A DNA stretch of 26,878 bases from a virus. Below are positions 8,117 to 21,023 of this stretch, one piece after another. The position numbers were made by a program, and so were the translations under genes. Location of the stretch: the IMG/VR virus record IMGVR_UViG_3300042309_001730, positions 1-26,878 of that record; one strand, written 5' to 3'. The notes beneath the pieces are model-generated. The model made no database searches. It saw only the letters and a list, made by a program, of their open reading frames with translations, and was not told where the DNA came from. Each line of letters opens with the position of its first letter. The stretch's first letter is position 1.

Positions 8117-9229
8117 TTAATCATATTTAACTATATAACCCTTCCAAGAAGTTGATAATGAGGAGTCAGGTGCGTTATGTCCGTTATCTGGCCATACAGA
8201 TCCTGCTTGTATTTTTCTTGTTTGTGCAGTTTGGAATTGGAAATACCATTTTCTACCACCTTTTTCTAATTTTACTGTACTCCCTGTTTCTTTATATGTA
8301 CCTACATCAAAAGTTTCGTCTCTTCCAGATCTGTAAATAGTGGTACCTGCCTTATCTTTAAAATCTTCCTCAAAATGTAATGTAATTGTAGCATGCATCC
8401 CAATTTGTTTTGCAATACTATCGTCTTCTGCATCACCTTGTAATTTTTTCTTTTTAATGTCAATATTTGTTATTTTAAAATATTTTTGTAAATCTGAAAT
8501 AATATTATCTAAAACTGCCTTAGCGTCAGTATACCAATCCTCAATAGTTGTACAAGTACTTAATAATTCATTTCTTTTATCATTATCTTTTTTTATTTCT
8601 GGATATTCTTTTTCACATTCATCCCAAGTTTCCTCAAATTGATCTTGAACTACATCCATATAACCACTAACTGAACTTAAATAAATGTCTTTTGATGGTA
8701 CTGGAGGTGTAACGGTTTCATCTAAATTATCCTCAAATAATCTAGCACAATAACAATCACTATGTGGTATTTTCTTTTCATATCTTTTTAATAACATTAC
8801 AGTTTTTGCTGCAGTTTGTAGTTTATTACCTACCCTAATTATACCAACAGCAGTTCTTCTAAATTTAGAAGAACCTGCAACAATTGCAATTTGTTCTAAG
8901 TCTTTTTGATTAAGTTTACCATCTAATAATTGTTCTTCTAATGTTTTGATTAAGTTTTCTTCTTCCATCTCTTCATAATCAATGGTTTCCAATTCAATTT
9001 CATCACCTACCTTTACATCTGATTTATATACTTTAGCGTCTTTTAAGTTAATGTAATTTTTACCGTCATTTGGAAAAGTTTTACCATCCTCAATAACTAT
9101 AAAAATTTCTTTTTTAGCGTTACTTCCTGATGGTAATTCAATTATACCATCTTCACTCAATAAATTATAAATTGATTCGTTTATTTGTGAGATGGTATTT
9201 AAAAAATGTTTTAAATTATTTTTCATCAT
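8117..9229 (-). CDS. Unknown protein with prohead-type leader, 370 residues
   Basis: The N-terminus is an amphipathic segment (MMKNNLKHFLNTISQINESI, then YNLLSEDG) ending in LSE at residues 24-26, with INE also at 16-18. These match the (L/I)xE form cut by T4-type head protease. Beyond it is a beta-rich stretch (about 30-80), an acidic helix (YEEMEEENLIKTLEEQ), a basic helix (KLQTAAKTVMLLKRYEKK), a Cys pair CYC near 160, and a C-terminal beta-rich region with several Trp residues. No known family is recognised. It lies between the gp26-like chaperone gene and the tape measure, 5 bases before the latter. A second ATG follows the first directly, so the start may be one codon later. The leader links it to six other proteins in this window, suggesting packaged cargo or a tail-associated protein. 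Confidence 0.6.
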   Translation of the reverse strand: MMKNNLKHFLNTISQINESIYNLLSEDGIIELPSGSNAKKEIFIVIEDGKTFPNDGKNYINLKDAKVYKSDVKVGDEIELETIDYEEMEEENLIKTLEEQLLDGKLNQKDLEQIAIVAGSSKFRRTAVGIIRVGNKLQTAAKTVMLLKRYEKKIPHSDCYCARLFEDNLDETVTPPVPSKDIYLSSVSGYMDVVQDQFEETWDECEKEYPEIKKDNDKRNELLSTCTTIEDWYTDAKAVLDNIISDLQKYFKITNIDIKKKKLQGDAEDDSIAKQIGMHATITLHFEEDFKDKAGTTIYRSGRDETFDVGTYKETGSTVKLEKGGRKWYFQFQTAQTRKIQAGSVWPDNGHNAPDSSLSTSWKGYIVKYD

Positions 9230-9239
9230 TTATTTTTAT

Positions 9240-9247
9240 TATAAATA
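9240..9247 (-). promoter_or_regulatory. TATTTATA upstream element of the 370-residue gene
   Basis: Plus-strand TATAAATA, minus-strand TATTTATA, 10 bases before the ATG at 9229 and within an AATATTTATAA context. The same element is found before five other gene starts (5821, 17886, 17279, 20283 and 23948). Its function is unknown; it could be a promoter or an untranslated-leader element. Confidence 0.3.
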
Positions 9248-9264
9248 TTTAAAAAAATAAAAAA

Positions 9265-9399
9265 CTATTCTGTATTTGATTTATTCCATTCATTAATAAA
9301 AATTCTTCTAGAATATGTTGGCATTATCATTATATCTGAATAAGAATATCCCTTATTCACTAAATAATTAATTTCCTTATGTAGATACATTAAATGGTT
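9265..9399 (-). CDS. Shifted-frame C-terminal extension of gp26-like protein
   Basis: Directly after the stop of the gp26-like gene the +1 frame stays open for 44 codons to a TAG at 9265-9267. It encodes NHLMYLHKEINYLVNKGYSY and then DIMIMPTYSRRIFINEWNKS. This has the form of the C-terminal end of gp26-type and tail-chaperone proteins: a helix with HL..LH.EI, a turn, then a Met-Pro-x-x-x-Arg-Arg helix. The first ATG in frame (9388-9390) would give only 41 residues and has no ribosome-binding site, so production as a fusion by frameshift at 9397-9406 is more likely. The fused product would be 303 residues. Independent initiation from the ATG, or an assembly error, are the alternatives. Confidence 0.6.
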   Translation of the reverse strand, partial: NHLMYLHKEINYLVNKGYSYSDIMIMPTYSRRIFINEWNKSNTE

Positions 9400-9406
9400 A
9401 GAGTTC
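9397..9406 (-). promoter_or_regulatory. Candidate +1 programmed frameshift site
   Basis: On the minus strand the end of the gp26-like gene reads GAA CTC TAA C. The Leu codon before a slow stop, followed by C, resembles the bacterial RF2 (prfB) +1 site CUU UGA C. Slipping from CTC to TCT lets the ribosome read AAC CAT TTA ATG and continue in the 44-codon extension with no extra residues at the joint (FFWPEL-NHLMYL). Six bases upstream is a run TTTTTTC that could support a -2 shift into the same frame, as in phage Mu, but pairing in the P site would be poor. Confidence 0.5.
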
Positions 9407-10177
9407 AGGCCAGAAAAAATTGCTCCCAAATCTAAGAAAGGTATTTAAGGACTCTCCCCCCTGAGTCCTTGCAGTAGTTTTATAATCTAATCCTGGTGTT
9501 ATTTCATTTATATATTTCCTTAATGACCTAGTATCGATAATAGGTAATTTTTTAATAACGTTAGAAATTCTTATTTTATCTCTGTCACCATCAATAGATT
9601 TTATCTGTTGTTCTAATAAAAACATTAATTTATTAGATACTCCATCAGGATCTCTTTTTTTAAATTCATTATCCCTCATATCAACTATCTCTTCGTCCTT
9701 ACCAGTTAAAAGAGTAAAAGTTACTTTTTTATTTGTTTTTGGTAATATAAATTCAAATTCACCATTCTCATCAGGTTTTATTGTTAATTTTTTTTGAGAT
9801 AAGGTAGATAAATCTATGATAGCCTCAACAAAATCACCTTGTTTTGGGTCAAATACTAATTGTTTATATTCTTCCCCAAATGCAGTAACTCTCAAAAATA
9901 CCATCAAAGCAGTTCTATCACCAACAAGTAAATCTTCAGGATTAAACCCTAAATCTTTAACCTTTCTTGTTAATAAGATATCAATTAATTTATTACCGCT
10001 AGATATATTAGGTGATGAAATAATACTTTCATCCATAGCGGTTAAGTATTCTACTTTAACGCTTTTTTTATTATTTTTATATAAAATACCTTGTGAAGGT
10101 AATTCTATTAAATCGTAAGGTGTCCTATATTCCTCAGGAATAAAATTAGGATCTAAATTTTGTGATACATTTTCCAT
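9398..10177 (-). CDS. gp26-like (T4_baseplate family) tail assembly protein
   Basis: 259 residues in the zero frame. The N-terminal part matches the T4_baseplate (gp26) family pattern: YDLIELPSQGILYKNNK, then VKVEYLTAMDESIISSPN, a segment KLIDILLTRKVKDLGF, and LLVGDRTALMVFLRVTAFGE followed by EYKQLVFDP. T4 gp26 takes part in baseplate hub assembly and is about 208 residues. Here the gene sits between the tube gene and the tape measure, where other long-tailed phages encode tail assembly chaperones with a frameshifted long form. The zero frame ends FFWPEL just where a shifted frame supplies the missing C-terminal helix pair. The product probably acts in tail assembly and is not a major virion part. 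It is preceded by a 39-base gap containing a TGTAAATA variant of the upstream element. Confidence 0.75.
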   Translation of the reverse strand: MENVSQNLDPNFIPEEYRTPYDLIELPSQGILYKNNKKSVKVEYLTAMDESIISSPNISSGNKLIDILLTRKVKDLGFNPEDLLVGDRTALMVFLRVTAFGEEYKQLVFDPKQGDFVEAIIDLSTLSQKKLTIKPDENGEFEFILPKTNKKVTFTLLTGKDEEIVDMRDNEFKKRDPDGVSNKLMFLLEQQIKSIDGDRDKIRISNVIKKLPIIDTRSLRKYINEITPGLDYKTTARTQGGESLNTFLRFGSNFFWPEL

Positions 10178-20283: not shown

Positions 20284-20311
20284 ATAAATAAATATTTAAC
20301 ATAAAATAAAA

Positions 20312-20332
20312 AATCCCGCCAATGACGGGATT
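20312..20332 (-). terminator. Rho-independent terminator after the sheath unit
   Basis: A 7-base-pair stem (AATCCCG with CGGGATT) and 7-base loop. The minus strand continues into a T-rich run, and the plus strand also has T residues, so it may work in both directions. It lies 24 bases past the 125-residue gene, closing the sheath - 94 - 125 unit before the metallopeptidase gene. Confidence 0.82.
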
Positions 20333-20355
20333 ATTTTTTGTCTAAAAAAAAGATA

Positions 20356-20733
20356 TTATCTTCTTCTAAATTTTTTATAACTTTCAGGTATTCTATTTCT
20401 TAACCTTCTTTGTCTCTCCCTCTCAAATTCCAAATCTTCATCATCGATATAATTTTTCTTATGTTTTTCCATATTTTGATCGTACCATTTACGATGAACA
20501 TCTTTCAATCCACTATAATCGTCATCATCTTCTAAATCTTCAATAAATTCTTCAGAATATTCACTACTTCCTTCATTACCTAAATTCATAAAATCATCAT
20601 CAGACATTTTATTAAAATTTAAATTACCATATGTTGGGTGAACATCGTCCATTCCGCCCATATCTTCTTTAATAACTCGTTTTACGATTCTTCTTAAATC
20701 CGATTCTGTTAATCTAACTATTTTCTTTTTCAT
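20356..20733 (-). CDS. Small leader-bearing acidic/basic protein, 125 residues
   Basis: The first 23 residues (MKKKIVRLTESDLRRIVKRV then IKE) form a basic amphipathic helix ending in IKE at 21-23, an (L/I)xE site. The remainder has an acidic middle (EEFIEDLEDDDDYSGLKD) and a strongly basic C-terminus (RERQRRLRNRIPESYKKFRR). Such acidic/basic layout could suit nucleic-acid binding or packing inside a head, but no family is recognised. It is separated by 5 bases from the 94-residue gene and by 22 bases from the terminator, so it is the last gene of the sheath unit. The leader motif LTESDLxRIVKxxIKE is nearly the same as that of the 94-residue gene beside it, indicating related targeting. Confidence 0.65.
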   Translation of the reverse strand: MKKKIVRLTESDLRRIVKRVIKEDMGGMDDVHPTYGNLNFNKMSDDDFMNLGNEGSSEYSEEFIEDLEDDDDYSGLKDVHRKWYDQNMEKHKKNYIDDEDLEFERERQRRLRNRIPESYKKFRRR

Positions 20734-20738
20734 AATAT

Positions 20739-21023
20739 TTAACTTTTAATTGGTGAATTTGATTTATCTTTAAGACAATTTAATGCTGCAATTGCTTTAG
20801 TTCCTACACCAAATGGATCATTAATAACCATTTTCCCAACTTCTTTAAGACACTCTTCAGCGTCACCACTTAAACAAGATGCTGGTGGTTTAATACCTGC
20901 TTCACTACAACATACAACTAAATCATTTTTAGGATCTTCATTTTCCTTTAATAATTTTTTTACTATTCTTTTCATATCAGTCTCAGACAAAGTAATAGTT
21001 TTCCCGTTTTTTCTAATTTTCAT
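20739..21023 (-). CDS. Small leader-bearing Cys-rich protein, 94 residues
   Basis: The leader (ITLSETDMKRIVKKLLKEN) ends in LKE at 25-27. It is the same type as that of the 125-residue protein next to it. The mature part would be only about 67 residues, with Cys at several places (VVCCSEAGIKPPASCLSGDA, then EECLKE and LNCLKD), suggesting a small disulfide-linked or metal-binding fold. No family is recognised. It follows the sheath stop by 27 A/T-rich bases and is 5 bases before the 125-residue gene, so it is likely co-transcribed with sheath at high level. A short protein with a removable leader fits a T4-type internal head protein, but this is inference. Confidence 0.6.
   Translation of the reverse strand: MKIRKNGKTITLSETDMKRIVKKLLKENEDPKNDLVVCCSEAGIKPPASCLSGDAEECLKEVGKMVINDPFGVGTKAIAALNCLKDKSNSPIKS

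Follow-up and report, generated by a model that had tools for sequence, protein, structure and literature searches.

Seven predicted proteins in a stretch of viral DNA open with short leaders that end in (L/I)xE, and we propose, with a probability of roughly 0.7, that these leaders act as capsid-targeting propeptides, equivalent in this clade to the capsid-targeting sequence (CTS) of T4 and expanded here to a large modular cargo that includes polyproteins. The stretch, called the window below, is IMG/VR record IMGVR_UViG_3300042309_001730, a viral fragment of 26,878 bases which, from its gene content, reads as the tail block of a large T4-like myovirus infecting bacteria; all the window genes under discussion lie on the minus strand. 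Judged from sequence, a large and variable assortment of proteins is probably packed into the viral head for delivery to the host. An earlier note on this DNA suggested that a prohead-type leader marks the seven proteins as one class. The existence of such a class is well supported through relatives of the virus, by its recurrence, by a putative cut site like that of the capsid protein and by the presence of peptidase S77. The leader class is real, and wider than the earlier note saw.

The (L/I)xE triplet alone proves little, because it is common. It ends within residues 8–36 in 1,431 of 3,264 proteins (44%) of the related set, and is found in 788 of 2,720 equally long internal stretches (29%), and was therefore rejected as evidence by itself. 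It is the leader upstream of the triplet that makes the finding real. Relatives were gathered through the tail tube protein, 80 being taken from at least 600 matches, together with the whole records of the larger ones. Their open reading frames (ORFs) were called with a simple and crude caller, on which the per-record counts given below rest, and were reduced to 1,224 non-redundant proteins. Four leader classes recur within residues 1–40 of these proteins: class A (LTESDLxRIVKRVIKE) in 29, class As (MKNLIRKILKE), which is close to the C-terminal half of class A, in 29, class B (ITESQYKRLLLNE) in 40 and class C (NEEIxRMKSLFTEERLYGNL) in 23. The counts for residues 41–80, made with unanchored patterns, are 1 for class A, 4 for class B and 0 for class C.

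Profiles of the four classes were built from 109 proteins, five further pattern matches having been discarded by eye as false (L053:1475, G006:48583, G008:405, L031:2731 and L016:178). With a threshold of 8 bits, and with proteins under 80 residues dropped, the profiles match 293 of 3,429 N-termini, compared to 4 of 3,429 shuffled ones and 4 of 2,083 internal stretches. Because the seeds, among them the four window leaders that match, are counted in the 293, the controls provide the comparison and not an independent recall. At least one match at this threshold looks false (G030:200611) and is kept in the counts. The bodies behind the leaders are unrelated, the mean alignment identity of the 109 being 3%.

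Leader proteins are unevenly distributed among the records, with 27 of 363 proteins in G026, 26 of 335 in G030, 23 of 215 in G025, 20 of 108 in G004, 17 of 258 in G001, 15 of 106 in G008, 12 of 155 in G002, 8 of 112 in G003, 5 of 130 in G005, 5 of 38 in G048 and 4 of 17 in the window. Four contigs of 210–380 kb bear 17–27 each. A back-translated short leader is found in at least 120 stretches in viral contigs and in 2 in cellular genome contigs, and a scrambled version of the pattern gives 0 in viral contigs. One of the two genome-contig matches, of 63,985 bases, has the same length as a listed viral record. The other is L318 (DDEN01000057.1, 354,805 bases, from a Chitinophagaceae metagenome-assembled genome), which has no S77 match and may be a large phage that ended up in the bin of a Bacteroidota genome. 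A tblastn search of phage records with a 24-residue leader gave no match, the query probably being too short.

Some related observations fall outside the N-terminal classes as defined here. The leader profiles also match 21 of 3,429 C-terminal 60-residue stretches, and the class C core (EEIxRIKxLM) is found at the extreme C-terminus of proteins of 240–839 residues (G025 190328–192568, G030 229186–231705, G006 40135–40857 and G008 8937–11414). This is a possible C-terminal tag, and may be compared with the C-terminal processing of T4 Alt. Another N-terminal family, of the approximate form MRRFDKRxNIxEANxRLExE, lies near the capsid gene (G025 116431–117800, G026 158962–161241 and G006 25053–25373), and is possibly a further leader class ending IxE/A (here and below, a slash marks the predicted cut). 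In the 108-kb contig G008, a single short-leader protein (MKNLIRKILKEEFDDF...) has five or more paralogues, scattered near 1520, 1952, 36099, 72148 and 81151.

All seven window ORFs named in the earlier note are present on the minus strand with the coordinates and triplets that it gave, and their lengths sum to 3,721 residues. Neither Pfam nor PHROGs gives a match at 0.001 for any of them. As to their forming one class, four belong by profile and three only by looser criteria. The highest score, 54.6 bits, is that of the 367-residue protein (16148–17251), in which a class C leader, residues 1–30 (17162–17251, ...SLFTEERMFGNLVE/D), precedes a body with no family assignment. The 125-residue protein (20356–20733), with no family match, has a class A leader in residues 1–23 (20665–20733, ...RIVKRVIKE/D, 37.0 bits). 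Another class A leader forms residues 1–27 of the 94-residue protein (20739–21023), for which PHROGs and Pfam give no match (20943–21023, ...RIVKKLLKE/N, 32.2 bits), and is kept in four relatives of 94–186 residues. The 1,185-residue protein (12584–16141) opens with a class B leader, residues 1–18 (16088–16141, ITENQYKRIFLNE/A, 36.6 bits), and also contains an internal class C leader that the earlier note overlooked, at residues 924–950 (13292–13372, ...ERLYGNLVNE/D, 44.9 bits).

The other three proteins have a loose (L/I)xE ending in common, and the support from relatives varies. The 793-residue putative cargo protein (17902–20283) has a putative leader in residues 1–25 (20209–20283, ...KKTILSE/Q, 0.4 bits), of which E25 is invariant in its 7-member family. 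The 787-residue putative cargo protein (10217–12580) resembles it over about 150 residues past the leader; its own putative leader occupies residues 1–35 (12476–12580, ...KSILLE/S, 0.9 bits), and its relatives have ILITE/G, MIITE/G and QLLLE/G at the leader end. The putative leader of the 370-residue putative cargo protein (8117–9229), whose body has no family assignment, is weak (residues 1–26, 9152–9229, ...NLLSE/D, −1.4 bits), and relatives have NLIVE/Q, NLLE/Q or PLHE/Q near this position. Phage records gave no match to the 793- and 1,185-residue proteins, and a search of viral contigs for relatives of the 793- and 370-residue proteins found a single contig, G048. An AlphaFold2 model of the 793-residue protein, from 7 sequences, had a mean pLDDT (predicted local distance difference test) of 41.6 and was unusable.

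PHROGs recognises the tail sheath (21051–23906, phrog_23, 1.9e-58), tail tube (17353–17841, phrog_4542, 5.7e-27) and tape measure (5994–8111, phrog_167, 6.7e-12) in the window, and gives a weak hub-like match. The leader profile scores of these three are −1.3, −3.1 and −2.9 bits, and the range for the sheath, tube, tape measure, hub-like, LysM and 1,201-residue proteins is −1.1 to −3.1 bits. By profile these proteins lack the leader. The triplet itself is carried by the hub-like protein (IPE15, LIE25) and the tube (IQE32). It is also found in the off-list protein at 24206–24643 (IDE20).

Homologous bodies are found behind leaders of different classes. Two proteins of G003, about 71% identical over 148 body residues, carry one a class C and the other a class B leader, and their near-identity begins at the predicted cut (SMLHE/QRRPFQSLKRAFT and GILTE/QRRPLQSLKRAFT). 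Similarly, a kinase-like body (Pfam AAA_33, 48% identical) follows a class C leader in L080 (LMLME/SKMV) and a class B leader in G001 (ILMTE/AKVV). In these two cleanest swaps, the bodies become strongly similar from the predicted cut onward. The start of a Smith-Waterman alignment was rejected as a sharp measure of the junction, because the alignments extend back into shared leader residues, and so only the equal distance of the two cuts from the start was used. Pairs with more than 85% body identity or fewer than 50 aligned residues were excluded, which leaves 41 cross-class pairs, counted by hand. For seven of them no cut is predicted in at least one member, and in 21 the cuts are equidistant from the alignment start; many of the pairs are redundant, and agreement between A and As is expected.

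Leaders also occur in tandem (L021, L053, L071 and G026:557), and one protein has two short leaders (G030:80025–80831). The 1,185-residue window protein is a fusion of two leader proteins, the halves of which are separate in relatives: they are neighbouring genes in G004 (1,030 + 293 residues), L010 (1,106 + 285) and L005 (926 + 286), and in all three the second gene opens with the same class C leader. The internal class C leader is also present in proteins of 1,181 (L001), 1,322 (L019) and 1,186 residues (G048). It lies at the fusion seam, where it is the best-conserved stretch, and ends GN[LM][VI][NK]E in 6 of 6 aligned sequences (without G048). The contig G048 is 85–95% identical to the window over the shared DNA. 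Its counterpart of the 793-residue protein has 1,029 residues, with a C-terminal extra domain attached via HYLVE/SFRKAYSFDWDDN, and elsewhere this domain heads separate class B leader proteins. One would expect a fused protein to retain such a leader if the leader still served for addressing, for cutting or for both.

The ends of the leaders resemble the site at which the capsid protein is presumed to be cut. At the presumed end of the propeptide, 16 of 16 capsid proteins have LINE, LISE, LLTE, LLNE, MLNE or IVSE, with A, S or T as the next residue, the position being assigned by analogy with T4 gp23 (LTE/A in the sequence); the 16 include G005 and immuto, and three of the other 14 are identical at the site. 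Comparable leader ends are IFLNE/A, KLLKE/N, RVIKE/D, TILSE/Q and SILLE/S, and a motif (L/I/M)(L/I/V)xE is found, by sequence, in all 16 capsid proteins and in leaders. Where the class pattern regularly ends, 27 of 28 class A and 28 of 29 class As leaders have E, and class B patterns often extend to the following Q. In addition, the protein between portal and protease, in the place of T4 gp67/68, has (I/L)xE/S near residue 20 in 7 of 9 cases, and in several of 11 cases the scaffold starts with SIIEEALLEA or a variant of it.

The search for a protease was aimed at S77 (gp21-type). S77 is present in 7 of 15 tube relatives and 8 of 25 leader contigs, most of which are fragments, and in 5 of 12 further records, comprising all five phage records and 0 of 7 contigs of 25–39 kb. 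A full-length gp23 is found in 16 of 41 records, and S77 in 16 of these 16; in three more of the 41 the gp23-like ORFs are all partial, and S77 gives no match there. The gp21-like protease that the earlier note proposed to look for beside the leaders is therefore present in every record with a full-length gp23, and was not found within the window fragment. Co-presence of S77 and gp23 places the leaders in a suitable type of phage; it does not make them substrates. Small ORFs (78–207 residues) matching parts of gp23 were also seen, in G002 (near 41649, 42034, 72708 and 74767), G025 (18103) and G030 (11262). G025 and G030 have the full-length gene elsewhere in the same record, and some of the small ORFs retain the LxE site.

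Several points weigh against capsid targeting. Three of the seven window proteins fall below the profile threshold, the capsid cut is placed by analogy, class C has two possible LxE sites, and 13 of the 34 cross-class pairs with both cuts predicted are out of register. S77 was not found in the window or its nearest relative (63.7 kb), both of which are fragments, and the joint presence of S77 and gp23 is a weak test, because the two go together in T4-like phages anyway. Few leaders are found in the S77-bearing records G006 (0 of 92) and G007 (2 of 79), and T4, Mel-JY01, immuto and HTVC008M have 1 match each, the one in T4 being of doubtful meaning, so the tags do not track the protease closely. 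Finally, leader genes are enriched near the tube (20 within 9 kb, with 7.9 expected, P 3e-5, in the 5 of 9 genomes with a recognised tube gene) as well as near the S77/capsid block (23 within 6 kb, with 11.6 expected, P 7e-4, 9 genomes). Gene position was for this reason rejected as proof of head loading, and both P values are optimistic, since neighbouring genes are not independent.

The enrichment near the tube, and the location of the seven genes between sheath and tape measure, would fit a role for the leaders, perhaps uncut, in attaching proteins to the tail (at the tube lumen, the baseplate or the tape measure), in or on which the proteins would then travel. We regard this as unlikely. 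The same classes are found in the protease-scaffold-capsid block (8 in G025) and far from both, and the leader ends match the capsid cut site. Moreover, 15–27 variable proteins per genome suit a loose cargo better than a fixed tail, and in Mel-JY01 and immuto the sheath and tube genes adjoin, with no such genes between them. The match with the capsid cut, together with the T4 and giant-phage precedents, favours the head.

The nature of the cargo bears on a second alternative. Most of the 109 bodies have no family assignment. Pfam finds PG_binding_1 in 3, AAA_33 in 2, SprT-like in 1 and single weak matches, and PHROGs assigns 3 to endolysin families and 2 to kinase-like ones. A 769-residue protein of G030 has a short leader followed by a poly(A) polymerase head domain. 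A HELTH motif, read by eye, suggests that the 793-residue window protein may be a metalloprotease, and an FDWDDN domain has a HAD-like look by eye; Pfam gives nothing for either. Many bodies look like accessory cytoplasmic proteins, and the leaders could be helices for localisation or interaction in the infected cell (with a membrane, a replication site or a host partner), unrelated to the virion. Several class A leaders are indeed basic and amphipathic. The description of all seven window leaders as basic holds for those of 20356–20733 and 20739–21023 (net +6) and 17902–20283 (+4), the others having +2, +2, 0 and 0, and the class C leaders and that of 8117–9229 are neutral. Given this, and given that the conserved ends resemble protease sites, in common with the capsid protein, and that body similarity begins at the cut in swaps, an intracellular role appears slightly less probable even than tail docking.

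Within families, the leaders are among the conserved parts of the protein. In the family of the 367-residue protein, 14 of 25 invariant columns fall within residues 1–28 of 367 (6 body-homologous members). An alignment of 8 class C proteins placed 13 of its 15 invariant columns in the leader, but was dropped because two members had been chosen by leader and not by body. For the 1,185-residue protein (6 members), the 38 invariant columns include M1, I6, E8, Q10, F15 and E18. The 793- and 787-residue proteins belong to one family, in which only E25, the predicted cut residue in the numbering of the former, and N506 are invariant in 7 sequences. The family of the 370-residue protein is weaker, with I20 and L23 invariant in 4 sequences and the E out of alignment. 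At the DNA level, identity in the leaders is 0.45–0.70 at third codon positions and 0.80–0.94 at first and second, and identical leader residues are often encoded by different codons, which implies that selection acts on the leader peptide. Change-overs between homologous bodies at leader junctions might suggest that the 5' ends are recombination or RNA-level elements that spread genes, with the peptide a by-product, but this is very improbable in view of the far greater divergence at third codon positions and the retention of leaders within fused proteins.

Capsid targeting has a precedent in T4, in which, according to the papers on which these comparisons draw (PMC10052503, PMC3012670, PMC9026906, PMC5694885, PMC7824862 and PMC9391042), a short CTS is found on variable, non-essential cargo and is cut by gp21 (peptidase S77), with C-terminal processing of Alt. 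The CTS of the T4 internal proteins and Alt is likewise a short N-terminal propeptide ending (L/I)xE (MKTYQEFIAE/A), common to otherwise different proteins with variable cargo, and this clade too has an S77 protease. The leader sequences differ, the internal protein leaders resembling the 11-residue class here in length and ending only. Here there are at least four classes, on 15–27 proteins in the richer genomes, with tandem, internal and C-terminal copies and fusions. T-even internal proteins are described in the same sources as countering host restriction, and by analogy such a role would fit the fast-changing cargo here.

The ejection proteins of giant phages, as these sources describe them, are alike in forming a large internal protein mass and in having N-terminal propeptides that a prohead protease (phiKZ gp175, SPN3US gp245) removes by cutting after E. 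In SPN3US eight substrates are cut N-terminally, the motif is of AxE type, and most propeptides have 111–254 residues, although two have 20 and 24, whereas the leaders here have about 10–36 residues and fall into shared sequence classes. The polyvalent proteins of some tailed phages are also large, multi-domain and thought to enter with the DNA; the parts of PMC7824862 available mention no shared cut leader, whereas here the fused unit retains its own. A literature search found no recognised report of these leaders, and five leader peptide strings in no paper; its thin coverage of subscription papers and preprints makes this a weak negative.

For capsid targeting, we infer scaffold binding, cutting, presence in the head and ejection, and also a protease in the window's own phage. 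The leaders would bind the scaffold core during head assembly and bring their bodies into the prohead, where the S77 protease would cut them off after (L/I)(L/I)xE while also removing the major capsid protein's propeptide. Once released, the bodies would remain with the DNA and enter the host as early-acting factors. A few tag classes serve many unrelated bodies, are swapped between homologous bodies and survive gene fusion, and cutting at an internal tag would split a polyprotein inside the head.

A separate observation concerns a 52-residue ORF (NLKITPxTHxxLKxYCEKNGLKMFAFVEKxIKEKC) at window positions 24051–24209 on the plus strand, opposite to that of the sheath gene. It is kept in relatives (G048 62245–62403 and G004 103795–103953).

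Proteins injected with phage DNA are the first to face host defences, and they have no common fold and are hard to find. We would give even odds that a T4-like lineage loads a fast-changing cargo (kinase-like, nucleotidyltransferase-like, possibly a metalloprotease, and others) by means of interchangeable head-address tags, part of it as polyproteins split in the capsid before ejection. The lineage is uncultured and common in IMG/VR. If the tags do direct loading, sequence alone yields dozens of candidate injected proteins per genome, and the tags amount to an addressing system whose formats are N-terminal, tandem, internal and perhaps C-terminal. The tag would then be a search key that exposes candidate injected proteins straight from metagenomes.

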